Shown: piece after piece, positions 5,772 through 22,011 of the stretch | How the letters are laid out: each line of letters begins with the position of its first letter | Numbering within the stretch: the first letter of the stretch is position 1 | Origin: a virus | Direction: 5' to 3' (one strand) | Virus record (IMG/VR): IMGVR_UViG_3300006192_000004 | Location: 1 to 64,000 of that record | DNA: 64,000 nt | The notes under the pieces: model-generated | Told to the model about the DNA's origin: nothing | Databases searched by the model: none | Seen by the model: only the letters and a program-made list of their open reading frames with translations | Position numbers and translations under genes: made by a program

Positions 5772-7805
5772 ATGTCTCTTAATAAAAGTACTCCAAGAGC
5801 AGTATTCAAAGGCTGGCAAGATTTGTCAACCCGTGCGTTACCTGCAGAGCGCGACGAGTTGCCTATCCACTTACCACGCTTTTTCCTTCGTACACCAAAA
5901 GGTCCTGAGACGGATGAGTTGGTGGTTGGCGCAGATTTCCTACGTATGTATGGTAAAGATGCCGCAGACGAACTGAAAGAATACTTCTCACACCAAACCG
6001 TAGCCGCACTCACAGCTAACGCTGCGGGTAATGCTTTTTATGTCCACCGTATCCTAAGTGAAACGGCTAAGAAAGGGCGCTTTGTACTAAGCGCAGAAGT
6101 CGTAGTTCAAACATTCGAAGAATACGTACGTGCTACCGATGGCACTGTTACTTCGGATGAGAACGGCCCTATTACCAACAGTGGTGTAACCTTTGATGGT
6201 TCTTTAATCCGCTGGACAGTATCCCCAGTCGATGAACTCGAAGCCGGTGCGATTCCAAATCAAACTCCGGGTACCTTAGTGGGTAAAGTCGGTGAAGAAT
6301 CGACTATTTACCCTATTTTAGAATTCGAAGCGTCTTCTAAAGGTAAATACGGCAATAACATCGGCATGCGTATGTCGGTACCACATTTGAAAACGGCTGA
6401 CCCAGCCGATGCATTTGTAGTAGAAGACCAAAACACCATGATGTACCGCTTTGCGATCGTTGAGCGTGAAACTGCAGAAAGTACACCTGTCGTGGTTCCT
6501 TCTATTAATGCTGACCGTTCGATTGATGTGAGCTTTAAGCCAGGTGTTACTAATAAGAACACGGGTCAAACATTTGGTCTAGAGCGTCTAGTGGAAGACT
6601 GGCAAGACTTTACAGCGGGTCAAGTCAAGCGCTATGGTCCTTTTGGTCAAATCTACTTCTACGAAGATAACCTAAAAACTATCCTCGATGCCATTAAGGT
6701 AACTGAAGAAGCAGAAACGGGCACGGCCATTGCCGACGCACATCTAATCAACCCATTTACCGCGATTAGCTGGGAAGGTATCGAGCACGAAACCGTGCGT
6801 CTATCATCGGACTCTGTTGCCCTAAATAGCGCAACAACACACTACTTAAAAGGTGGTGATGACGGTGACATGACAGATGCTACGTACGACGATCTTGTAC
6901 GCAGTGAGCTTGAAACTGGTTGGGAAAACCCACTGAACCCTGTAAAGGACATGTTGCGATTCCCATTCTCAGTAATGTACGACACTGGCTTTACATTAGA
7001 CACTAAGAAATCAATGTTGGCGACTCTAGGTCAAAGACCGGACATCCACGTTGGTATCTGTACACATGTCGAAGGTACGGTTCCAAATGACATTGCTGCT
7101 GAAAGCTCAGTAGCGTTAGTGCTACTTAACGCCGCACGTCTGACTCCAGAGTCTAGCGTCTATGGTACGGGTGTCTGCCGTGCTACCATTACTCGCTCTG
7201 TAGGTACATGGACGTCTTCTTTACGTAAACGTACCGTACCACTCATCATTGACTTAATCCATAAACGTGCTAAGTACCTAGGTGCTGGTAGCGGCATTAT
7301 GAAGTCGGTTGAGTCTTATGACGAGTACCCAGCAAAACTGGTTACTGAGTTGTCAGGTGTGACTAACACGTATGTGCCACAGACACCAAAAGACAACTTC
7401 TGGGATTATGGCGTCAACGGTGTTGAATACCTAGGCCGTACTGAAATCGGTTGGCCGGCTATTCAGTCCATCTATGAGAACAGTACTTCGGTACTAAACT
7501 CAGACATCGTGATGCAAATCATGGTGGATGTGACTAAACAAGCAGCACTGACTTGGGCACAGACGTCAGGTGGTTCTAAAGAGACAGATTCCCAATATCA
7601 TCAACGTGTAGAAGAAACGTTCGATGGTAAAGTCGCTAACCGTTACGACGGTCGCGTGACGATTCGTGGAACGTCTTATAAGACCGCCGCCGACGAACTG
7701 CGTGGATATAGCTCTAACATGGACATTGAAGTCTATGCAGATGTTATGCGCACTGTTCAGCAATTTAACATCATCGCTCGTCGCCGTAGCGACCTCGATG
7801 CGTAA
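5772..7805 (+). CDS. Contractile tail sheath protein
   Basis: The 677-residue product is close in size to PhiKZ-type tail sheaths and lies 15 nt before the tube gene, the usual sheath-tube order. It begins with a short extension and a compact domain (PRFFLRTPKGPETDEL), has a variable middle (residues about 120-330), and ends in a helical-plus-beta domain with NRYDGRVTIRGTS followed by DIEVYADVMRTVQQFNI, like the sheath carboxyl domain that packs on the tube. It would polymerise around the tube and contract at infection. The start follows GAGGA. The family call rests on order, size and general resemblance. Confidence 0.82.
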   Translation: MSLNKSTPRAVFKGWQDLSTRALPAERDELPIHLPRFFLRTPKGPETDELVVGADFLRMYGKDAADELKEYFSHQTVAALTANAAGNAFYVHRILSETAKKGRFVLSAEVVVQTFEEYVRATDGTVTSDENGPITNSGVTFDGSLIRWTVSPVDELEAGAIPNQTPGTLVGKVGEESTIYPILEFEASSKGKYGNNIGMRMSVPHLKTADPADAFVVEDQNTMMYRFAIVERETAESTPVVVPSINADRSIDVSFKPGVTNKNTGQTFGLERLVEDWQDFTAGQVKRYGPFGQIYFYEDNLKTILDAIKVTEEAETGTAIADAHLINPFTAISWEGIEHETVRLSSDSVALNSATTHYLKGGDDGDMTDATYDDLVRSELETGWENPLNPVKDMLRFPFSVMYDTGFTLDTKKSMLATLGQRPDIHVGICTHVEGTVPNDIAAESSVALVLLNAARLTPESSVYGTGVCRATITRSVGTWTSSLRKRTVPLIIDLIHKRAKYLGAGSGIMKSVESYDEYPAKLVTELSGVTNTYVPQTPKDNFWDYGVNGVEYLGRTEIGWPAIQSIYENSTSVLNSDIVMQIMVDVTKQAALTWAQTSGGSKETDSQYHQRVEETFDGKVANRYDGRVTIRGTSYKTAADELRGYSSNMDIEVYADVMRTVQQFNIIARRRSDLDA

Positions 7806-7820
7806 CCGGAGGCCGGATAA

Positions 7821-8681
7821 ATGTCACAGGTTTTATTAGACAGCGCCCACAGTTTGAACCGTAATTCAAACTCAGGTGTGGCTGACCCACGTGTGGGCGG
7901 TCAAAACGGCTTCATCCCTGATTTTGCTAACTGGGCAAATGCAGGTAAACTGGTTAAGGGCCGCTTAATTGCGGTTCTTATTCAAGAACCTACAGGTATG
8001 CAGCTACAGGATGACGGTACGGACCGCATTGCCTTTTTAAAGGCAATGGTTGAATTGTTACCAAAATCCATTACGGGCCTCGTACGTTCTAAGAACGCCG
8101 AATTCTTAGAAACAATTGCATCCAATGGCGGCGAGATGTTTGAAACGGTAACTAAGGTTACTCGTGACCGTTCTACTCCTACTTTCGTATGGGACGAGTT
8201 AGACGGTAAGCCGATTACTCGCATCATCGAAGACTGGATGGATGAGTTAATGCAAGAAGGCGACTTAGGTCACCCTTCAATCATTAATAAACCGTCGTAT
8301 GAAGAAGCAGGTTCGCCTGCGATTACTCCAGACTTCCAGTCAATGGTTGTGTTGTTTATTGAACCTAACCGTTCAATGACAGGTGTAACTTCAGCGTTCC
8401 TGTGCTCAAACATGATGCCTAAGGGCTTTACAGACGAATCGCAACGTGCGGTAGGCGAAGCCTTAGAAGGTCTAGAACAGTCAGTAGAGTTCACGGCATT
8501 TACTATGGTAGGCGACGCCGTTAACGCAATGGCCATGGAGTATTTGGATTCAGTGAATAAGCAGGGCCTAGCGCCACGCTCATTAACTGCATTTACTTCA
8601 GGGCTATCGGTTAACGTAGCGGATGATGCTGTGCCTATTGGTGGGCGTGCTGCTGTAAACAACGTAGCATCTAGCTTGTAA
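7821..8681 (+). CDS. Tail tube protein
   Basis: The 286-residue product is encoded immediately after the sheath with a strong GGAGG site. It starts with an Asn/Ser-rich flexible segment, then FANWANAGKLVKGRLIAVLIQEPTGMQL, resembling PhiKZ-like tube proteins. It would stack as rings forming the inner DNA conduit. The operon ends at a strong bidirectional terminator 17 nt after the stop, which is consistent with a high-level late transcript. Confidence 0.8.
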   Translation: MSQVLLDSAHSLNRNSNSGVADPRVGGQNGFIPDFANWANAGKLVKGRLIAVLIQEPTGMQLQDDGTDRIAFLKAMVELLPKSITGLVRSKNAEFLETIASNGGEMFETVTKVTRDRSTPTFVWDELDGKPITRIIEDWMDELMQEGDLGHPSIINKPSYEEAGSPAITPDFQSMVVLFIEPNRSMTGVTSAFLCSNMMPKGFTDESQRAVGEALEGLEQSVEFTAFTMVGDAVNAMAMEYLDSVNKQGLAPRSLTAFTSGLSVNVADDAVPIGGRAAVNNVASSL

Positions 8682-9244: not shown

Positions 9245-9667
9245 TTACTCTTCTTCAGCGACGGTTTCTTCAGAAGTAATTAGCTGGGCAATATGGCTAT
9301 GTACCGCAGCAATACCATCTTTAGATGTACCGAAGTCATTCATAATGGCAGATGTCATGTAGTTATGACGCTCTTCCCCTTCGATAGTGACCTTTCTTTG
9401 AAAGAGATGTTCAAAGCCAATATGGTCACCGCCTTCAAATGCACCATTAACGGTATCATGAGGTGACGCATGTGCAAGTTCACCGGTAACCAATGCTGAA
9501 GCCGCCAGGTAATCCGTATTGTACTGATTGACTTTGTCTAGTTGTTCTTCAGTAACGCCTTCAGGTCTTAATTCCACATAGGTTTCTTTACCAGCTACAA
9601 TAAGACCATCGTCTTCACGTACTTTACCTTTTAGTAGTTTAGCTAGTGCGGATACTGTACTATTCAT
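9245..9667 (-). CDS. Uncharacterised early-type protein (140 aa)
   Basis: The chosen start is the ATG giving MNSTVSALAKL, placed after GAGAG; an in-frame GTG lies three codons upstream. The protein is soluble and acidic at its end (TSEETVAEEE), with histidines at ELAHASPHD and AVHSHIAQL. No family is recognised. It is a single-gene unit with its own promoter-like CCTATATTT about 40 nt upstream and its own terminator, an arrangement typical of an early host-interaction gene. Confidence 0.65.
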   Translation of the reverse strand: MNSTVSALAKLLKGKVREDDGLIVAGKETYVELRPEGVTEEQLDKVNQYNTDYLAASALVTGELAHASPHDTVNGAFEGGDHIGFEHLFQRKVTIEGEERHNYMTSAIMNDFGTSKDGIAAVHSHIAQLITSEETVAEEE

Positions 9668-9706: not shown

Positions 9707-9720
9707 AAATATAGGTTTTA
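9707..9720 (-). promoter_or_regulatory. Early-promoter-like element upstream of the 140-aa gene
   Basis: The minus strand reads GTAAAACCTATATTTCC, sharing AAACCTATAT with similar elements near 12282, 32023, 36525 and 60312. PhiKZ early promoters are described as carrying a TATATTAC-like AT-rich core. The position is about 40 nt before the ATG. Confidence 0.55.
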
Positions 9721-10121: not shown

Positions 10122-10874
10122 TTAAACGAGGGTCTCGTTCACGGATAATAAGCCATAACGGGCATATCGCGCATCACCTGGTACGCCAGGGCGTAAGTCA
10201 GGGTAATTTAGAGCTTTCCATATATCGATTTGACGCATGCCATAGTATGGATGGTCCCGTGGTAAATCTAAACGTACCGTTTCTTCCTCATTTAAAGGAT
10301 GGTCGTCTATCGTTACACCGGTTAGTAAGTAATAGTCGGTAATGTTCTTCTGAAAACCTTCCATCGCGATGTCGCCTGGATTTATAGAAAAGCGAGGCGT
10401 ATACTGACGGTGGTCTAATTGAAATATATTCCCATCCTCATACACCATACTGTTTACAGGAGTGTTAGAGTAAAGTCCTCTTTGACGAATACGTTCCTCG
10501 TGCTCTGACGCCGTAATATAAGCGCGTTTACGTGCACCTATTACTGGTCGCTGATTCACATAAGGGGAGGCTACAGGAGCGCTTTCTACCGTTTCCTTTT
10601 TAGGAGTTGGCATTGTGTCACTCGAAAGAAAGTCAAAAGCATGGCTCTCTTTATCCACCGGTGAATTTGTTTGCATAGGCGCAGTTTTATGTACCGGAGA
10701 TTCTTTATAGCAGCATGGCACTTCTACAGTACGCGGCTCTGGCATGGCGACGTCGACTTGAACCCGGAAAGCATAATCTGCTGGAGAGTAGAAACCTAGG
10801 GTTAATATAACCAGTATGGCCATTCCTACTCGTCTGGCGTGTTGGGTAATTTTATTAATGAGTGTACTAAACAT
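10122..10874 (-). CDS. Membrane-anchored protein with MFSTLI start (250 aa)
   Basis: Residues 1-15 are basic (MFSTLINKITQHARR) and 16-35 are hydrophobic (VGMAILVILTLGFYSPADYA), giving one amino-terminal membrane anchor. The rest is a polar, Pro/Val/Thr-rich region followed by a more structured end, probably periplasmic or cytoplasmic depending on orientation. Two adjacent cysteines (VPCCYKES) lie after the anchor. The start resembles MFATIK of the upstream small membrane proteins, so it may belong to the same gene set. Function unknown. Confidence 0.6.
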   Translation of the reverse strand: MFSTLINKITQHARRVGMAILVILTLGFYSPADYAFRVQVDVAMPEPRTVEVPCCYKESPVHKTAPMQTNSPVDKESHAFDFLSSDTMPTPKKETVESAPVASPYVNQRPVIGARKRAYITASEHEERIRQRGLYSNTPVNSMVYEDGNIFQLDHRQYTPRFSINPGDIAMEGFQKNITDYYLLTGVTIDDHPLNEEETVRLDLPRDHPYYGMRQIDIWKALNYPDLRPGVPGDARYARYGLLSVNETLV

Positions 10875-10895
10875 ATGTCCTCCAGTCGGCCTATA

Positions 10896-10939
10896 GCGCC
10901 AGTCGAAGGCACCCCTGCAGAGATGCCTTCTGGTTGCGC
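10896..10939 (-). other. Long hairpin upstream of the 250-aa gene
   Basis: Interrupted arms GCGCC...GAAGGCA and TGCCTTC...GGTTGCGC form a 44-nt hairpin ending about 20 nt before the GGAGG of the gene at 10874. There is no U-tract, so it is less likely a terminator than an RNA-processing or translation-control structure. The loop-side GGTGCCTTCG echoes the terminator at 22-43. Confidence 0.5.
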
Positions 10940-10959
10940 TAGCGACCTTAATTGTTGTG

Positions 10960-11298
10960 TTAAGCGTTAGCCACAGCGGTACCGTCGAGTTGTTCTAGAA
11001 CCTCTTCAATGTCCCCGTGGATTTTTGCGATGGACTCTTTTACAGCACTAAACTCTTTAGCTTGTTCGGATACAGTCGCGTTAGTTTCCGCAGGCTTTAC
11101 TACCTCTTCGGTTGCTGCCGAGTCGTTAGACTCAGTAGAGTTTTTCTTAGCAAGGTAACGTTTACATAGGGACCAAGTTAAGGCAGCCGCAGCTAATAGA
11201 CCGACTGCACCTAACACCATTGTTAGATTTAAGCCCATGAAGAATTCTTTTGTTGCTTCTAGCGCAACAGTTAAAGCGTTTTTAATAGTAGCAAACAT
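10960..11298 (-). CDS. Small membrane protein, MFATIK family (112 aa)
   Basis: It begins MFATIKNALTV, then an amphipathic helix and one membrane helix (about residues 22-42, LTMVLGAVGLLAAAALTWSLC). A polar tail rich in Ser/Glu/Ala ends in a possible coiled coil (KEFSAVKESIAKIHGDIEEVLEQL). The upstream leader and first codons are nearly identical in DNA to those of the 85-aa gene upstream. The ribosome binding site is AAGAAGGAAC. Role unknown; envelope targeting is likely. Confidence 0.65.
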   Translation of the reverse strand: MFATIKNALTVALEATKEFFMGLNLTMVLGAVGLLAAAALTWSLCKRYLAKKNSTESNDSAATEEVVKPAETNATVSEQAKEFSAVKESIAKIHGDIEEVLEQLDGTAVANA

Positions 11299-11318
11299 GG
11301 TAATGTTCCTTCTTAATA
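11273..11318 (-). repeat. Leader and start-codon repeat, copy A
   Basis: The minus strand shares ATTAAGAAGGAACA, the ATG, and TTTGC..CTATTAAAAA with copy B at 11578..11621. The repeat covers the ribosome binding site and the first codons of two neighbouring membrane-protein genes, showing duplication at DNA level. Confidence 0.7.
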
Positions 11319-11345
11319 AAGTAATGGTTGTAGTTTAGAGTGTAC

Positions 11346-11603
11346 TTAAGCAAGTACAGTACTAAGGTCAGATTTGTAGTAAGTTAGAGCGCAATCGACG
11401 ATAAACGCAACGAGTGCTACGATGCATAGCATCCCTGCCATATGGAAGATGGATTCTAGCATAATGGAAATTGCTAGAACGGCGATACATACTAGCATAA
11501 CAAGCAGATAGACTGATGCAAACGCACTACATGTAATGTAAACACCTGAGTGTTTAAAGTCGTTAACGGTACGGTTAAACGTATTTTTAATAGCGGCAAA
11601 CAT
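11346..11603 (-). CDS. Small membrane protein, MFATIK family (85 aa)
   Basis: It starts MFAAIKNTFNRT and has two hydrophobic segments, about residues 22-48 (YITCSAFASVYLLVMLVCIAV) and 53-72 (FHMAGMLCIVALVAFIVDCAL). It ends in a short polar tail. Four cysteines lie within or beside the membrane segments. Leader and early codons are shared with the 112-aa gene downstream. A holin-like size and topology is noted but there is no direct evidence for lysis. Confidence 0.65.
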   Translation of the reverse strand: MFAAIKNTFNRTVNDFKHSGVYITCSAFASVYLLVMLVCIAVLAISIMLESIFHMAGMLCIVALVAFIVDCALTYYKSDLSTVLA

Positions 11604-11621
11604 AATAGTGTTCCTTCTTAA
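11578..11621 (-). repeat. Leader and start-codon repeat, copy B
   Basis: Second copy of the element at 11273..11318, again spanning the AAGAAGGAAC ribosome binding site and the codons for MFA-IK. A shorter related start (ATGTTTGCAACTATTAAA) occurs at 11900. Confidence 0.7.
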
Positions 11622-11651
11622 TGGGTTGGTGGTGGAGTTATGAATCAGTGC

Positions 11652-11900
11652 TTATGCATAAGCACATGAGCGATTTAAACAAAACAGCAGTACAGCACGT
11701 TTAAGAGAAATGTTAATGATAGCTCCTAGTAATGCGCCTATAAAGCCAGTAATGCCCATAAAGGCAAGTGCATAAACAATCGCAGTTGCTACGAGTATAT
11801 TGATAATAAGTGAGATAGGTCTTTCGATTGCACAATCTAAGTAGTTAAAAATAAGAAAGTTCCCAAGGCGAATCATGCGAGATTTAATAGTTGCAAACAT
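11652..11900 (-). CDS. Small membrane protein, MFATIK family (82 aa)
   Basis: It starts MFATIKSRMIRLGNF, followed by two strongly hydrophobic stretches (ISLIINILVATAIVYALAFM, then ITGFIGALLGAIINI) and a short basic, Cys-containing tail. Like its neighbours it seems to be a two-helix membrane protein. It lies 6 nt after the 91-aa gene, so they are co-transcribed. Function unknown. Confidence 0.65.
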   Translation of the reverse strand: MFATIKSRMIRLGNFLIFNYLDCAIERPISLIINILVATAIVYALAFMGITGFIGALLGAIINISLKRAVLLFCLNRSCAYA

Positions 11901-11906
11901 GTGATA

Positions 11907-12182
11907 TTACTCCGTATCTGTATCAGTTTTAGTTTCGGTTTCTTTTTTAGCAGGCTTTTTCTTTTCAACACGCGGTTTGGGTGTTGCTAGTACATAGACG
12001 ACTATAAGTGCCGTAATCAGTTCTAGGGCTTCCAGTGGGTGCCCTGTAACAGTAAGCCATGCTATTGATAGAAAGAAGCCAATCAGTAGAAATACACCTA
12101 AAGCCATTTTGACCTTACTGGTTTTAGTAGGGTGCTCCCCTTTGGGCGTATAGTTAATCGCACGTAATATAAAAGCGTACAT
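11907..12182 (-). CDS. Small membrane protein with charged tail (91 aa)
   Basis: It starts MYAFILRAINYTPKG. Two membrane helices lie at about residues 27-46 (ALGVFLLIGFFLSIAWLTV) and 50-68 (LEALELITALIVVYVLA), followed by a highly charged Lys then Glu/Thr/Asp-rich tail. It is the first gene of the membrane-protein cluster, with a GAGGAG site. Upstream sit a promoter-like element and a perfect 18-bp hairpin, so expression may be attenuated. Confidence 0.65.
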   Translation of the reverse strand: MYAFILRAINYTPKGEHPTKTSKVKMALGVFLLIGFFLSIAWLTVTGHPLEALELITALIVVYVLATPKPRVEKKKPAKKETETKTDTDTE

Positions 12183-12209: not shown

Positions 12210-12245
12210 TCTCTCCTCTAGATACTTAAGTATCTAGAGGAGAGA
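12210..12245 (-). terminator. Perfect 18-bp inverted repeat with U-tract in the leader of the membrane-gene cluster
   Basis: The arms pair perfectly about the centre 12227/12228 and are followed on the minus strand by GACTTTTTTATTT. It lies between the promoter-like element (12282..12310) and the GAGGAG site of the gene at 12182, so it sits in that gene's leader rather than after a gene. Confidence 0.8.
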
Positions 12246-12281
12246 AAACTTTCGTTTTATATTGGTTAATTCATTATGGTT

Positions 12282-12310
12282 ATATAGGTGTCACGTTTTC
12301 TTGAAACACA
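12282..12310 (-). promoter_or_regulatory. Extended early-promoter-like block, copy 1
   Basis: The minus strand reads TGTGTTTCAAGAAAA then CGTGACACCTATAT. The 29-bp block matches the one at 60312..60340 at all but about three bases, in the same position relative to an early-type gene. Its core TATATAAC resembles the PhiKZ early consensus. Confidence 0.65.
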
Positions 12311-12356: not shown

Positions 12357-12656
12357 TTACCCTGTAACGTATGCGCCGCCACCGGCCAAAGCCGTTGCAA
12401 TGGACTGGATGGCTAATATGAGTTTACCCGTCCTTCCTTTAACGGTATCGTGACTTACATAAGCCGTGCCTTGGGTAAAGGTAACATTACCGTTAGCACC
12501 GACTTGTACACGAAACCCAGCCATCACTAGGATAAGTTGACGGAGTATCGGAGCCCAGAACTGAAGTTCTTTCTCGGTCATAAACAGCTTAACATATTGA
12601 AGTGCCGCTATCAGTACTACATAGGTGACCCCAAAAGCAATATCAATATACTCCAT
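12357..12656 (-). CDS. Small probable membrane protein (99 aa)
   Basis: A hydrophobic helix lies at residues 5-24 (DIAFGVTYVVLIAALQYVKL), with a polar centre (QVGANGNVTFTQGTAYVSHD) and a hydrophobic carboxyl end (LILAIQSIATALAGGGAYVTG). It lies 10 nt after the prohead protease gene and shares its transcript. No family recognised. A role linked to head maturation is only suggested by position. Confidence 0.6.
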   Translation of the reverse strand: MEYIDIAFGVTYVVLIAALQYVKLFMTEKELQFWAPILRQLILVMAGFRVQVGANGNVTFTQGTAYVSHDTVKGRTGKLILAIQSIATALAGGGAYVTG

Positions 12657-12665
12657 AATCCCCCC

Positions 12666-13460
12666 TTACCAGTTTACTGAGCTACGAGGACCAATAAGCT
12701 GTACCTTTTCCCAGCCTAGACTGGTGCGGATAAGTGTAGAGTCAATGAGCATATCGCTTTCCATGCCCGTACCTACAGACTCACAGAGTTCAGCCGCCGC
12801 TAGAGTCGCTTCTGTAATTTCAAAGCGCTGTGCGTTTTCTGGTGTCCATATGATGTCACTATCCATAGATTCTAGAGAAGGAGTATCATAACGGTTAGCA
12901 ATAGCTACACCGCCCATGTTAACTTGGTCCCAAGTAATCAGTAAATTAATCACCTTTTGAGGAACACCATTGATTTCAGGAGTAGGGGTAGTTAACGTAC
13001 GTACCGAGAAATCTACGTTCTCATCTGGGTTCTCAAATTTCTTATCGAGTTGTTCTCCATATGGACCTGAACCTTTTACCATACCGATAACACTAACGAC
13101 ATTATTACCGCGATGGTCTTTAGCCGTCTCTAAACGTACAGATTTGATATGATGGGCGACAAACTGATTGTGAACCATCTTTACGCGGTTGAGGTATTGT
13201 GGGAATGTCATGCCTGGTACTGGGTAAGGGTGCTCAATTTCCCCACGCAGACGACCTGTTTCGATTTGGTGTAGTAGACGGGAACCGGGTTTAAACATGT
13301 TTTTAACCGCCTGTGTAAAAGGATAGAATTCCCCCTTCTCGGTTAAGCAGTTAAACGCCCCTAGACATATCTCACGATAGCCATTTGCATCAGTCTTTAA
13401 TCGACCAACCTTATTTTTACTTTTCAGTATGTTGCATTCGTATAGCGCAATAGTACTCAT
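12666..13460 (-). CDS. Prohead maturation protease (T4 gp21-like, PhiKZ gp175 type)
   Basis: The 264-residue protein carries the pattern of S80-type prohead proteases: LRGEIEHPYP with the candidate catalytic His at residue 77, then FVAHHIKSVRL and GMVKGSGPYGEQL, and DFSVRTLTTP with the candidate nucleophile Ser152. These enzymes cleave scaffold, inner-body and capsid proteins inside the prohead, in PhiKZ after Ser/Ala/Gly-X-Glu. Two probable substrates are encoded at 36598..38651. It is followed 4 nt upstream by a virion gene in the same operon. The residue assignments are from motif reading. Confidence 0.8.
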   Translation of the reverse strand: MSTIALYECNILKSKNKVGRLKTDANGYREICLGAFNCLTEKGEFYPFTQAVKNMFKPGSRLLHQIETGRLRGEIEHPYPVPGMTFPQYLNRVKMVHNQFVAHHIKSVRLETAKDHRGNNVVSVIGMVKGSGPYGEQLDKKFENPDENVDFSVRTLTTPTPEINGVPQKVINLLITWDQVNMGGVAIANRYDTPSLESMDSDIIWTPENAQRFEITEATLAAAELCESVGTGMESDMLIDSTLIRTSLGWEKVQLIGPRSSVNW

Positions 13461-15955: not shown

Positions 15956-18900
15956 TTACTCCCCTGCTGCCAGATAAGCTTCGGCTAAAAGCTGATTCTT
16001 TTTCCGCACCGTCATGTTCATTACCCCTTGGATAATACAGGATAATACAATTCGGTTATTCACTGATTGAGCGCCGAATATCAGGTCAATGTCTCGCCCG
16101 TCTTCGGTTCGGTTAATCCCTTCCAGTGTACGCCCATGCACCGTTTTAAGCTGGTTAGCCACGACTGACTTATCACCGATGCCCGACTCCAGTTCCATAT
16201 CAATATAAATACTGATAATCACTTTACCCGGAACCAGTTTTTCACCTGAGATAAACGTAGGTTTACGTACGAGTCCGGTTTTACCAGCCGTGCTTCGATT
16301 TAAGTCCTTGACCTCTTTCTCACGTCGAGCATTGTCTGCTTCAACTAAAGCTTTTAATGAAGGACTCATTTCGGAAGGGTCTCCCATATAGAAGACTTCA
16401 ATGCGGGAAACTTTACCCCCTACTTTAGCTTTAGGAGATTGACTGGACAGTTTACTTAGGGCTAATAGAGCCGCATCGGTTTTCTCTAACCCTAAAGTAC
16501 CCGCTTCCTTAATGGTTACCAGTTTAGTATCAAACTCAACTACGTCCCCTACTGAAACTAATCCTTCAATTTCCTGGTCAAAGTCAACCATAATCCCTTT
16601 ATTCTTAGAAACTGAAGTCATCAGTTTTCTTCTAAAGGCATCACTGATAGCTGAACCATCTTCTAACGTATCGTTACCTTCCTTTAGAGCGACAACAGCG
16701 GGTACACCCGACAACATAATGACGTTTTCTGGGTTAAAGAAATCACGGGTAAAGAAACCACTGTTCCAGGCCAATACATATCCTATTTTAAACCGACTTC
16801 CTTTTACCTTATCCGTAACGTAATTATGAGGGATGAGTTCCCCGGCTACAACGCCATGTTTTGTACCCAGTCGGTAACCTTCCTTACTCCCGTCTTCGTA
16901 TTTTACCTGAATGACATTATCGGTAACTTTAACGACTTCACCATCTTGCTTTGCCCTAAAGACAAAGAAGTCAGATAGGCGGGAAGCAATAACAGCGTCA
17001 TATCCAGTACGATACGGCATGGGTTCACTGCCGACCGTAGGGACAACCGCTGACTGCTGTATTGCCCCTAAAGCGGCGCGTTTCCCATCATCACGGTCCA
17101 TGTCAGGTAGCGTTAATGCGGTTGTAGATAGTAATGAACTCGAACCGTCATCTGGATCATACTCGCCATACATACCACGAAGACTCTGGACTTTAGCATT
17201 TGGGGTTAAGAACCCACGTATCCCTACTTTAGCAGAGTCCGGGGTACTTTCACTTAAAATTCCTAAGTCGTTTTGGTCAAAGACACGGTTACGTTTTACC
17301 AGTGTACGAGCGGTACGTCCGCCTGTTCCTGATAGGGTAACTGCCTCTTGTTCCTTTAGTGCATGGATAGGGTTAATCTCAGACACAAGTTGCACGGATG
17401 CATCTTCATTTAGACGTCGCAATATCTCCGTAGGCGCGATGGTAATAGGTTCATTACGCGCGTTAGGCTTACGTCGTTGCTCAGCAATAGCTTCGTACAT
17501 GGCAAGATAGATAAGTCCAGATACACGTTCTAGCCCACGAATACGCATGTATTTAGGGTCGGATTCACGAGGGGCATCATTGGTCTTAACCAGGTCGGCA
17601 GCACGAATAAACAAGTCAATTAAGTTTTCAGGCTCTTTCATGTCACGCAATACTTCTAACGTGATAGGGTCTAAAAACAAATCGTTCATTAATGTCCAGT
17701 TATCAGTATGCCACTTATTCGCCCCGTAATGACTTAAGGAAGCCATCCAACCGTCTTTACGGTTAAACTCGGCACTGTTAAGGCGCCGCGTCATGTCCTC
17801 CATGTCGGCTAAGCCATTCCACAGTATCGCTTGTAGCGGGTCTGATACGGTAATGTATATGCGTTCATCGGCAAAGTTTACCGCGATTTCATTAAGTCCT
17901 GGACTTAAACGTTTGTCTAAGGTCTCCCAGCGATGAGGTACCTTTAACTTACGTAGAGTCTTGTCCAAACCCAAATGGTAGGCAATGAAATAAATAACCG
18001 GTACTTCACGTCGACCCGACTTAAAGACAGCAATGTCACCAGGGCGTTTACCCCAGCTACCACCTAGCGTACCTAAGATGTCTAGTCCAGGTAAGTCTTT
18101 ACCAGTAATGAACCCATTTACATCCATGACCATTGGCTCACCTTTATAGGTGCCGCAGATAACTGAACCTTTCTTCTCTAAACGAGAAACAACTTCTTTA
18201 CCGTAACGCTCAATGCGTCCACTGTATACAAAGTCAAAGGTTAGGTCACCAGACTTAAACCCACTGTAGTCAACCATAAGTGCAGTGTAGTCTCTTGGCA
18301 GCAGTACGTTAGGTACGGCGTTAGTGCCATAACGTAAGCTAGTTACTCGCTCATCCGCCGTACTCATGGCAGTTTCACGGATAACTTTACGCAACCATCG
18401 GTCACTGTCGTTCTTAGCTAACCCACTTCGATTGATAAAGATTTTACCCGCGTAAGAAGTAATGCCTGCTTGGTTCGATTTTGTCTTACGAATCGGGATG
18501 TCGGTTTTTTGGTTATCTATGCTGTATCGGATCCCCCCTACCATAAACGTTCCGTCTTCATTAAATACAGGAAGTTCTATTTTAAAGGTGGTTTCACGCC
18601 CTACCACCGGCAGGAGTGTAATCTCCAGCGTCTGCGTTTCTTCTAACGCGTCTGCGGTTTTAGTGACATTATAGTCGCGTAAGATAACCCCGCCTCGGTT
18701 TAACGATAGGAACACATTAGCGATGTCTTTGTCCATGACTTCACGCACATACTTAGACTTCATGTTCGCGACTGTAGACTTTAATGCTTTTTCTGGTACT
18801 ATGGGAGTATCAATCGGCACATTGATGTCTGGGTCAATGACCGTGTCTTCTGGAGTAACAGTAGCAAACTCAGCCAGAGTAGTTTTACCATCCGGAGATG

Positions 18901-19891
18901 GAATCTCTGCCATAGCAACAATTGCGTTTGCATAGCGTTTCTGCTGAGCCGCCGTTAATAACCCGACTTCTACCATTTCCCCTAGCTGCTGCTGTAATGC
19001 AGGTGGCATCAGTTTTGATACGGCTTCATCACTTGCATCTTCTGTATCGGCTTCTTTTGAAATCGCCCCCGCTTCTTCGTCAGAAACCGTGCGCGTCATC
19101 AAAAGCTTTTCTAACAGGTCATGAAACTTAGCCCCGGCAAGCGCATCGGTATCTGCAAAAGTATAAAGTACCGATAATGGCAAGAAGACTGACTTAGTGT
19201 CCACGGTGAATATAAAGTAAACGTCTTCCGATGTAATCTTCTCAATGAGGCTCGGTGCCCCTTTTAACATGCGGTAGATTTCCAGTACCCATTGAAGTGC
19301 TGGGTCTCTAAGTCGTTCACGGTGTGAAACGCTGATACCTTCTAAGTTTACTTTAAACTCCGCTTCGGTCATCCAATGTCCACCAATAGGAATCTGAATG
19401 AACTGTGGGCGACGTCCATTAACTCGGTTAATCTGCTGGATGACCGTTTCTGCCATGTTAGCCCAGAAGTTTTGATACACATCTACACTGTGAGCATAGC
19501 GCACCATACGCGGAATCAACGTATAGTCTAAGACGACCATGTCACGTTCATCCATAATGTCACGCTCTAAATTACGACTGCGCTTTAAACCGGGCTGACG
19601 CTTAAAGTACTCTTTAGTATACTTCATTGCGTTAAACTGAATGTTCTGTGTTCTACCGTTAGGATAAAGCCCTTCTGTAATTAGATTAACGCGAATCCGT
19701 GTAGGCCAGTGTACAGCAAGTAAACTGTCTGCACGGAACCCTCGGTCGTCAGGACTTAATGGTACATAATGCAATAACGTACCTTTAGGCATCGTTAAGT
19801 TAATCATGTCAACTAGCGGGGTTGAAGTAAGCAGTAGGTTCTCCCTTGCCCCTAAGCGTCGCATGAAATTATCGACATTAATCAGTGTCAT
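15956..19891 (-). CDS. Virion-type RNA polymerase beta subunit (1311 aa)
   Basis: This is a single-chain beta subunit of a phage multisubunit RNA polymerase. Around residue 447, LPVFNEDGTFMVGGIRYSI matches the bacterial PLMT..GTFIINGxERV region. Around 895, GFLTPNAKVQSLRGMYGEYDP occupies the place of the ETPEGxNIGL region. Residues about 950-1100 show the VPRTGxE-like RTGYDAV segment and a flap-like part (LGTKHGVVAGELIPHNYV). Near 1240, GIGDKSVVANQL is the GDK basic motif, followed by GRDIDLIFGAQSVNNRI in place of VDIxLNPxGVPSRM. It starts 2 nt after the beta-prime stop, so both are made together. In PhiKZ-like phages this enzyme is packaged and transcribes early genes. Confidence 0.88.
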   Translation of the reverse strand: MTLINVDNFMRRLGARENLLLTSTPLVDMINLTMPKGTLLHYVPLSPDDRGFRADSLLAVHWPTRIRVNLITEGLYPNGRTQNIQFNAMKYTKEYFKRQPGLKRSRNLERDIMDERDMVVLDYTLIPRMVRYAHSVDVYQNFWANMAETVIQQINRVNGRRPQFIQIPIGGHWMTEAEFKVNLEGISVSHRERLRDPALQWVLEIYRMLKGAPSLIEKITSEDVYFIFTVDTKSVFLPLSVLYTFADTDALAGAKFHDLLEKLLMTRTVSDEEAGAISKEADTEDASDEAVSKLMPPALQQQLGEMVEVGLLTAAQQKRYANAIVAMAEIPSPDGKTTLAEFATVTPEDTVIDPDINVPIDTPIVPEKALKSTVANMKSKYVREVMDKDIANVFLSLNRGGVILRDYNVTKTADALEETQTLEITLLPVVGRETTFKIELPVFNEDGTFMVGGIRYSIDNQKTDIPIRKTKSNQAGITSYAGKIFINRSGLAKNDSDRWLRKVIRETAMSTADERVTSLRYGTNAVPNVLLPRDYTALMVDYSGFKSGDLTFDFVYSGRIERYGKEVVSRLEKKGSVICGTYKGEPMVMDVNGFITGKDLPGLDILGTLGGSWGKRPGDIAVFKSGRREVPVIYFIAYHLGLDKTLRKLKVPHRWETLDKRLSPGLNEIAVNFADERIYITVSDPLQAILWNGLADMEDMTRRLNSAEFNRKDGWMASLSHYGANKWHTDNWTLMNDLFLDPITLEVLRDMKEPENLIDLFIRAADLVKTNDAPRESDPKYMRIRGLERVSGLIYLAMYEAIAEQRRKPNARNEPITIAPTEILRRLNEDASVQLVSEINPIHALKEQEAVTLSGTGGRTARTLVKRNRVFDQNDLGILSESTPDSAKVGIRGFLTPNAKVQSLRGMYGEYDPDDGSSSLLSTTALTLPDMDRDDGKRAALGAIQQSAVVPTVGSEPMPYRTGYDAVIASRLSDFFVFRAKQDGEVVKVTDNVIQVKYEDGSKEGYRLGTKHGVVAGELIPHNYVTDKVKGSRFKIGYVLAWNSGFFTRDFFNPENVIMLSGVPAVVALKEGNDTLEDGSAISDAFRRKLMTSVSKNKGIMVDFDQEIEGLVSVGDVVEFDTKLVTIKEAGTLGLEKTDAALLALSKLSSQSPKAKVGGKVSRIEVFYMGDPSEMSPSLKALVEADNARREKEVKDLNRSTAGKTGLVRKPTFISGEKLVPGKVIISIYIDMELESGIGDKSVVANQLKTVHGRTLEGINRTEDGRDIDLIFGAQSVNNRIVLSCIIQGVMNMTVRKKNQLLAEAYLAAGE

Positions 19892-19893
19892 GG

Positions 19894-22011
19894 TTAATCA
19901 CCCGTCATTATTTTTAACACAAGGTCGCTGACGTCCGTTGTGAGGTTATACGTTAAACCGCCGTTAGGCGAGATGTAGGTAGATTTAGCAGCCAGTCTAG
20001 CTTTCGCCTCGGCAACCCCCTCATCACTATTAATGAGTGTACAGGATAGTACATCTCCATCAAACTTTGTCTTCTAGGTGCTCGTAACGCACCTACTGTT
20101 ATACAGCTCTAGCTCTCGCTAGACGACCTGGAGTACCCCAGGAAGGGCTTTCGCCGAAGAGACTATATCATCACCCTATAGAACTGTTACCGCGCTATAG
20201 GGGCTCCCCATTTCCATTTAAGCCATCACAGCCCCACCATTCACTTGTGGGCGTACTCTACTCGCTTCCCCTAAGGCATGTTGACCTTAGGCTATTATCC
20301 CTCCGGGTATTTCTCCTGGAGTTAAGCTTTCGATAGTCGTTGAACTCATTCCATATCTGTTAATAGACTTAGGAACTTCGCTGCGTCGATTTTCTCTATT
20401 CTCAAGATTATCACTATAAAACCAAAGTCGTTAACTTTAACCTTTACGATGTTTCCATGTAAAGGGAGTACTTGAGACCTAACAAGAACTTCCCGCAATT
20501 AGAGGAGTTTATTTACTGCACATTACTGCGCAGGCGGACTTCTAATGGTTTACATTAATTTTATCCGCACCTAATGGCTTTAGCATATATGGGCTAACCG
20601 CCATGGTATCAAAGAAAGGCAGTTTATTTTTTGTATCCGGAAATTCTAGGGCTTTGTTGCCCGTAGGGTTAAAGTCCGCATCCAGTTCTTCTAACAGTAA
20701 GCCATTGACTGTTGTTTTAACATAAATCTCTGATGCATAAATAGAGCCTAGTCCCGTTACTGGGTACCGGGTACAGAACGCCATGTTCTTTTTAATGTTA
20801 TCTTTAGATAATAAATAGAACATCTCTGCCCATGACATCGGGGTAACATACGCCTTATCGTATCCTTCCGGTAACTCACGGATGTCTTGCATAATCCGAT
20901 ATTGTTTTCCGTCATTATAGATGAGTCTTAAATACTTACCGTCGATAGTAACTGGGTTATGTCTAAGGGTGGCATCTGCAAAGCCATTGATGATGCCTTC
21001 TAATCCCTCACTGGTTAACCATTTCTCTCTAGCTTTGTCAGAAAGGGTGACAGCTACCGCTTTAAGTGATTCTCGGTCTATCAGACGCGGGTCTTCATAC
21101 TCGTCAAATAAGTCAGAAAGAAACAGCTTACGGAATGCGTATTCCGTAACATAGGCTTCGTTTCCTTTGATGTATTGAAACAGGCCAATAATCGTCGTGT
21201 TTAAACCGGGCTGGCGTTCATCGCCTAGATAAGACGAACCCACTTCCATAGACGAAAGTACGTTACGTGTAGAGCCAATGATTTTACGTGAGGCTAGCTT
21301 ACCCTGTAGAATCCCTCGCTTACCTTCTAACATGTTAAAGATGTAGTCGTAGATGTTTACAACGGCTTTCTGTAAGTTAGCTTTAGCTTCGTCTAAGAGT
21401 GAGCTATTACGCTGCTCAAAATCCACGTTAATGGTATTGGCTACGGAAATCACACGTCGATACAGTGGGTTAATGTCTTCTTCTTTAGGTTGCCCATCTT
21501 CTGTAATTTCGATATCACGAATACCGGCAGGGATGACAAAGAGACGCTTAATAAAAGCCTGATGGCGATATTTCTCTAACAGGTCGATACGCAGGTCACG
21601 TCGCTGTGACTTATTGCGTTTAAACTCAATCTCGTTAAAATGAGAAGTAAAGAATGCAAAGCCGGTTTCCCCTGTCATGATGTCAGCGCGTACAAAGTCT
21701 TTTTCTTCAGCATCCCAGGTTGCATAGCCTTGACGTGTGAGTATGTCTAGATACAGTTGCTTTAAGGCAATCAGTTCTTTAAAATATAAGGGATGGAAAA
21801 TAGGAACCTTTAGATTAATGTAAGATTCTTTGGTTTCACGGGCACTATCGCCCTGACGACCAAAAATAACATTAGAGTATAACCCCTGTGGGTTAAAGTC
21901 GCCATTCTTTCCTTCGAAGAGCTGTAGGGACTGCACGGGCAATAGACCGGCAAAGGTATTATCGACATCCCTGACAAAACTGATGTTAAAGGGAAGTAAT
22001 TTCGGTTTCAT
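19894..22011 (-). CDS. RNA polymerase beta-prime amino-terminal fragment, interrupted by a group I intron
   Basis: Join on the minus strand of exon 1 (20563..22011, 483 codons) and exon 2 (19894..20064, 56 codons plus TAA) gives 539 aa. Exon 1 holds switch-like GKRGILQGKLASRKIIGSTRN near residue 227 and RYPVTGLGSIYASEIYV near 415, matching RxxxLGKRVDYSGRS and RxPTLHRxxIQAF. The junction creates GADFDGD at 481-487, with Asp483, 485 and 487 as Mg ligands. Exon 2 (DEGVAEAKARLAAKSTYISPNGG) aligns with [22 protein letters not shown] of bacterial beta-prime. The rest of beta-prime must be encoded elsewhere, as in related phages. Unspliced RNA would give a 489-aa product ending KINVNH and lacking FDGD. 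The start follows TAAGGAA. Confidence 0.9.
20065..20562 (-). ncRNA. Group I self-splicing intron (498 nt, no ORF)
   Basis: P1: exon end GCGGAU (20568-20563) pairs with GUCCGC (20539-20534), with the U-G wobble exactly at the splice site. The intron ends in G (20065). P7: GACTAT (20338-20333, within GTTCAACGACTAT) pairs with ATAGTC (20166-20161, within GATGATATAGTC), matching the classic R and S elements. P4 candidate: TGCG of AATTGCGGGA (20500-20491) pairs with CGCA of AATCGACGCAGC (near 20388-20379). UUU of exon 2 can form a short P10 with GAA before the IGS guanosine. The long interval between P7 strands suggests extra helices as in subgroup IA. No endonuclease frame is present. Confidence 0.9.

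Follow-up and report, generated by a model that had tools for sequence, protein, structure and literature searches.

Copied leaders and a shared protein start in a gene array of phiKZ-like jumbo phages, a candidate set of early membrane proteins

The ways in which nucleus-forming phages exploit and safeguard membranes just after infection begins, within the first minutes, are still poorly understood. The window analysed here (a stretch of 64,000 nucleotides, positions 1 to 64,000 of IMG/VR virus record IMGVR_UViG_3300006192_000004) contains, at positions 10122-12182, five consecutive minus-strand genes whose products all start with MF or MY, which raises the question of what this common start is, how the genes came to share it and what the small proteins behind it do. 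A related set of genes is found in an isolated Vibrio phage, XC31, and small membrane proteins that change quickly and would be made early offer concrete genes to test.

Locus, proteins and relatives

The window's virus is identified as a phiKZ-like jumbo phage by matches or synteny for the tail sheath, the tail tube and a prohead protease of the S80 family (Table 1), and is probably nucleus-forming; its relative XC31 encodes the nuclear-shell protein ChmA (phrog_4795, E 1e-31), the window's own record being an incomplete fragment of 114 kb. The array is flanked on one side by the protease and a small conserved membrane gene, and on the other by genes of 96 and 140 aa and the tail genes (genes outside the array are ORF calls made for this analysis, not curated annotation). 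A previous reading made from the letters of the window (the sequence-only reading) had reported here a run of genes starting MFATIK, MFAAIK, MFATIK, MFSTLI and MYAFIL, and all of them are present at that place on the minus strand, each with its own ribosome-binding site.

Table 1. Positions and main characteristics of the array, its promoters, RNA elements and copied blocks, and of neighbouring genes
Feature	Genome	Position	Strand	Characteristics
Tail sheath	window	5772-7805		
Tail tube	window	7821-8681		
Array gene 5	window	10122-10874	minus	MFSTLI start, 250 aa, N-terminal helix 2-28, then probably exported domain
Structured RNA leader of gene 5	window	10888-10947	minus	outer helix, internal loop AACCA/GACUG, 11-pair inner helix; fold -33.9 kcal/mol
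Array gene 4	window	10960-11298	minus	MFATIKN start, 112 aa, one hydrophobic segment, predicted helical C-terminal part, C-terminus ANA
Copied block B	window	11260-11352	minus	gene 3 end, spacer, ribosome-binding site, first codons of gene 4
Array gene 3	window	11346-11603	minus	MFAAIKN start, 85 aa, two hydrophobic segments, C-terminus VLA
Copied block A	window	11564-11658	minus	gene 2 end, spacer, ribosome-binding site, first codons of gene 3
Array gene 2	window	11652-11900	minus	MFATIKS start, 82 aa, two hydrophobic segments, C-terminus AYA
Array gene 1	window	11907-12182	minus	MYAFIL start, 91 aa, two hydrophobic segments, charged C-terminal tail
Perfect 34-base palindrome	window	12211-12244	minus	5' untranslated hairpin, then T run (sequence, fold)
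Early-type (virion-RNAP-type) promoter	window	12272-12302	minus	core CCTATATA at 12288-12281, predicted start G 12272, weight-matrix score 32.7
Small conserved membrane gene	window	12357-12656		beside the protease
Prohead protease, S80 family	window	12666-13460		
Array	XC31	120066-124026		L002 7067-11027
Second promoter, inside array	XC31	123747		score 28.1
Array promoter	XC31	124141		CCCATATT, score 36.1; aligns with the window's array promoter

Concerning the proteins, the same reading had assigned one or two membrane helices to all five. By hydropathy this is borne out for genes 11907, 11652 and 11346, with two hydrophobic segments each, and for 10960, with one, but not for 10122, which displays only a sub-threshold N-terminal hydrophobic stretch resembling a signal peptide or an anchor. 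Insertion of the array proteins into a membrane is thus predicted from their hydropathy; gene 9691 of the XC31 array presents no membrane segment. Single-sequence AlphaFold yields a helical model for gene 4 (pLDDT 60) and a low-confidence one for gene 5 (pLDDT 40), whose first 20 residues nevertheless average near 90, and these weak models show the common start as part of a helix. A general amphipathic-helix interpretation of the start was considered and is unconvincing, with hydrophobic moments over residues 2-12 spanning 0.15 to 0.68. Profile searches, proposed earlier for each protein, returned weak, chance-level matches only, both for the window's array proteins (PHROGs, Pfam and PADLOC) and for those of XC31 (PHROGs and Pfam), and no informative family match was obtained in PHROGs or Pfam.

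A syntenic array is found in Vibrio phage vB_VmeM-Yong XC31 and three sister isolates, the sole named relative group that has one. It comprises seven genes with M(F/L) starts and one extra gene that lacks the motif, and the sister isolate MS32 displays the same gene layout. Array gene 4 has an ortholog in XC31 (MFTTIKNAIVNAAKAT; DNA match E 6e-8, 32% protein identity), as does gene 5 (264 aa, 29% identity, E 3e-5). The array is hence known from two independent lineages, since the four Yong phages seem nearly identical to one another; the IMG contig 3300018412_000013 encodes proteins identical to those of the window. No such array exists at that place in eight related jumbo phages (BONAISHI, sm033, pir03, FLC9, pVa-21, Goslar, SA002 and Ea35-70). 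In BONAISHI the small membrane gene is followed directly, after a gap of 13 bases, by the homolog of the 96-aa gene, and the protease-to-tube intervals of the other seven contain no gene set with a shared start of the array kind. Being present in the XC31 group and missing from these eight phages, the array is, as judged from gene content, a variable insertion of one clade. Copy number among related phages, a comparison that the sequence-only reading had called for, therefore runs from seven starts in XC31 through five in the window to none at this place in the eight others; the start is preserved in the homologues and the locus varies, so that neither of the outcomes that would have refuted that reading was observed.

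Further searches were less productive. A whole-locus DNA search in phages gave no match at megablast sensitivity, and searches of viral and bacterial-genome collections with the protease, the tail tube and the last array gene retrieved only the window's own virus and a distant protease relative (L007). A possible unannotated frame starting MPAILILVALYGGGKL, perhaps one more small membrane protein, lies in the spacer that separates array genes 8748 and 7932 of XC31 (L002 8514-8760, minus strand).

A shared start and copied leader blocks

To describe the start quantitatively, the array genes were compared with the other called genes of the window's 114-kb record and XC31. The pattern MF[AST]x[IVT]K opens 7 of the 12 array genes and none of the 462 others (Fisher p 8e-13, a test that counts array genes as independent although they are copies of one another), so the start is not due to chance. 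Because the array genes were copied from each other, this result marks the start as special to the array and says nothing on its number of origins. Within the window, three genes start MF(A)(T/A)IK and four of the five fit MF(A/S)(T/A)(I/L). MYAFIL, counted by the sequence-only reading as the fifth member, is there, but its DNA match is weaker, with an identity of 0.33-0.56 to the other window genes.

The likeness of residues 2-7 lies far above that of random gene sets (z 10.9 in each genome). Past the first residues the proteins differ, as had been stated: residues 8-30 give z 0.4 in the window's phage and a slight z 2.7 in XC31. The codons of the start vary synonymously (GCT/GCC/GCA, TTT/TTC), third positions differing while the residues stay constant. 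The DNA near the ribosome-binding site is alike among XC31 array genes (z 5.9); in the window's phage the upstream bases show no such likeness (z -0.4). At the other end of the proteins, a C-terminal Ala is found in 9 of 12 array proteins versus 40 of 462 other genes in both genomes (p 1e-7), a pattern that was spotted first in the alignment. In XC31 gene 9691 the motif F-x-x-(I/V)-K occurs three times, two copies lying 11 residues apart (0 of 20000 shuffles); this suggests that the start may act as a helical unit, with the test, like some of the other patterns, having been chosen post hoc.

It should be noted that a gene of 107 aa starting MYAFLMKAKLSVAAK, at 85433-85756 on the plus strand of the window's record and distant from the array, has a start that resembles that of array gene 1 (MYAFILRAI). 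A scan of viral contigs for a ribosome-binding site followed by MFATIK gave 20 other stretches with single matches each, and no second array.

The near identity of ribosome-binding site and first codons that had been noticed between two genes is confirmed for genes 3 (11346) and 4 (10960), which are identical in 31 of 36 bases from -18 to +18. It is part of a longer copied block. Blocks A and B align with 72% identity over 96 columns (E 7e-12), the alignment beginning at the stop codon of the previous gene and ending near codon 13. In XC31 the blocks before genes 8748 and 7067 (L002 coordinates) are 85% identical over 99 nt, from an RNA hairpin to codon 5, and there again the alignment ends. 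Likeness among array genes is confined to the leader and first codons, plus the excess of C-terminal Ala. Modules composed of leader and start have been duplicated by copying, the aligned blocks being direct evidence.

The array would then have gained and lost genes by copying of a block of about 90-100 bases that holds the end of the previous gene, the spacer, the ribosome-binding site and the first codons, and in XC31 also the RNA hairpin, while the protein bodies diverged or got replaced. Of the sequence-only view that the locus duplicates an expression start and attaches new membrane segments to it, the duplication stands (copied blocks, five versus seven starts). The attachment is one of two options: the bodies may be newly attached or may be old paralogs that diverged past recognition, and two lineages do not separate these. 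Either way, copying a leader with its first codons and changing the remainder would be a simple route to new phage genes.

Promoter class and RNA elements

In phiKZ-like phages, early promoters are detectable by their motif, the core of which lies 6 nt upstream of the transcription start; for the middle and late classes there is no such bioinformatic prediction (PMC7598289, PMC5312081). About 35 intergenic sites in the two genomes show a motif with the core CCTATATT, in which a G located 16 bases from the first C is conserved. They typically stand 40-130 bases upstream of a gene, and nearly all share the same strand. When trained on these sites, a weight matrix finds 41 sites in the two genomes versus 7 in shuffled sequence. 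In XC31 the motif lies upstream of the nuclear-shell gene (phrog_4795) and of an RNA polymerase fragment. The array promoter belongs to this class, and its spacing from core to start G matches the published early-promoter rule (PMC7598289, PMC5312081). From the conserved motif upstream of the array in both phages, together with that rule, we infer that the array is an early operon within a late structural cluster, and its genes would accordingly be expressed early. Its place among structural genes, which are usually late, speaks against this. With the early genes of phiKZ-like (Chimalliviridae) phages the array shares the AT-rich core and the start G 6 nt downstream, as well as the many small genes of unknown function; it differs in sitting in the structural cluster, in its paralog-like membrane genes and in their common start.

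The neighbouring 140-aa gene (9245-9667) has an early-type site of its own at 9715 on the minus strand, and its XC31 ortholog (41% identity) carries the same promoter. Similar proteins seem to be placed there in BONAISHI, FLC9, sm033 and pir03.

The array spacers often contain hairpins and clear ribosome-binding sites. The palindrome at 12211-12244, whose place is taken in XC31 by a different hairpin, is a possible mRNA stabiliser or attenuator. A two-tier hairpin stands before three array genes, namely gene 5 in the window and two in XC31. Over its 16 core pairs, window and XC31 differ by 5 compensatory and 2 one-side changes, with no pair broken; two outer positions are paired in XC31 and mismatched in the window, and the internal loop is constant, with AAC on one side and CUG on the other. 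This covarying hairpin is a candidate regulatory element. The pattern CGCAAC-N(22-36)-CTGGCG has no further occurrence in the examined sequence of the two genomes, an Rfam search at the hairpin positions gave no match up to E 5, and wider scans for the pattern found a proper fold only in the window's virus, other matches lacking the inner helix. Hairpins over stop codons were also tried as a general feature of the array, and rejected (3/12 versus 60/462).

Elsewhere in the window, a group I intron match (Rfam RF00028, E 7e-12) lies at 20144-20561 on the minus strand (L006 1900-2317), between ORFs 15956-19891 and 20542-22011. The corresponding region of XC31 has a weaker group I intron match (L002 17361-17721), and phage Goslar an annotated group I intron (L046 29596-30024).

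Possible roles of the array

The interpretation that we favour, with moderate confidence, is that of a lineage-specific array of early inner-membrane proteins, grown by duplication of leader plus start and most likely serving superinfection exclusion or envelope takeover. Since no array protein has an informative family match, the proposed function rests on size, hydropathy and timing. The excess of C-terminal Ala finds no explanation in this interpretation. A promoter of the virion-RNA-polymerase class at 12288 would drive one transcript, with the stable hairpin first, through all five genes. The common start would form the beginning of the first helix, and the proteins would insert into the host inner membrane within minutes of infection, gene 5 probably sending its C-terminal domain across. 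Their most likely role would be to alter the envelope against competing phages or host defences, in the manner of superinfection exclusion, and they are good candidates for remodelling or sealing the host membrane. Of the functions previously put forward for the locus, envelope takeover and superinfection exclusion fit the upstream early-type promoter and the small membrane-protein architecture, though a family match that would inform on them is lacking. Lysis timing finds no such fit: the promoter is of the early class, and in XC31 the annotated endolysin (280248-281132) is about 156 kb away from the array. A lysis module of holin-like and spanin-like proteins, with which the small size and the one or two helices would agree, is accordingly the least probable of the explanations considered; the spanin-profile match of gene 4 (phrog_214, E 0.02) is weak, and one among several equally weak and unrelated matches.

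The shared start itself can be read in other ways. It could be a mere initiation region, optimised for translation and copied to secure strong expression, with no role for the peptide and with unrelated bodies. The alike DNA near the ribosome-binding sites in XC31 and in the copied pairs agrees with this, as do the hairpins and clear ribosome-binding sites of the spacers, but in the window's phage it is residues 2-7 that are alike (z 10.9) and not the upstream bases (z -0.4), third codon positions differ, and the C-terminal Ala excess is left unaccounted for; we regard this as unlikely. Alternatively, the MFxxIK start, together with the C-terminal Ala, might be an address tag that brings variable early proteins to one site, e.g. 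the early phage infection vesicle, in whose membrane they could act as channels or tethers. The synonymous codons with constant residues and the terminal Ala of 9/12 proteins against 40/462 agree with this, as does the threefold motif of gene 9691, albeit in a test picked after the sequence was seen. The channels of this vesicle await identification (PMC12908238), and early proteins anchored there are reportedly sensed by at least one host defence (PMC13282480). However, the vesicle arises on injection, earlier than early proteins, and is family-wide, whereas the motif is restricted to one small clade. We regard such a tag, too, as unlikely. Less probable still is a fuller version in which any body behind a copied leader would reach one early membrane site, with the clade-specific hairpin controlling part of this; if true, the phage would build a changeable set of vesicle or envelope proteins from one copied start module.

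A start peptide could also direct proteins into the capsid, to be packaged and injected, as for the internal proteins of T4 and for gp53 and gp54 of SPN3US. The prohead protease gene is found two genes upstream of the array, the SPN3US paralogs have in common an identical N-terminal stretch of 15 residues with a protease site (PMC5694885), and gene 4 has ALE at residues 12-14. With these systems the array thus shares a short N-terminal peptide common to different proteins and a location near the protease gene, but it lacks a consistent protease site (A-x-E or S-x-E within the first 30 residues in just 2 of 12 array proteins), most of its products are membrane proteins and its promoter is of the early type, which makes capsid targeting very unlikely.

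Returning to the favoured interpretation of early inner-membrane proteins, the nearest functional parallel is found in phage T4, whose Imm is a membrane protein. The early exclusion proteins of T4 include a periplasmic one (PMC7677548). Like Imm and Spackle, which are early small envelope proteins, the array would combine small membrane proteins with one that is probably exported, but the T4 genes are single and have neither a shared start nor a duplicated leader. No homology to Imm or Spackle was found with PHROGs and Pfam for the array proteins of the window and XC31.

As to the mode of growth, Arbiol (2010) and Comeau (2014) reportedly described PeSL (promoter-early stem-loop) cassettes and gene shuffling in T4-like phages. 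According to a paper that cites this work, these cassettes mediate gene shuffling, blocks of stem-loop and early promoter recurring between small variable genes, where they are thought to aid swapping or duplication (PMC4503421). A promoter and stem-loop at most junctions is not what the array displays, with one promoter in the window, at the array head, and two in XC31, where one inner junction has its own, and with stop-codon hairpins at 3/12 versus 60/462; its RNA hairpin is, as far as searched, clade-specific. Homologous junction blocks, on the other hand, are found in both phages (96 columns at 72%, 99 nt at 85%), and the copied block of the array differs from PeSL in that it includes the first codons, so that the proteins share a start peptide.
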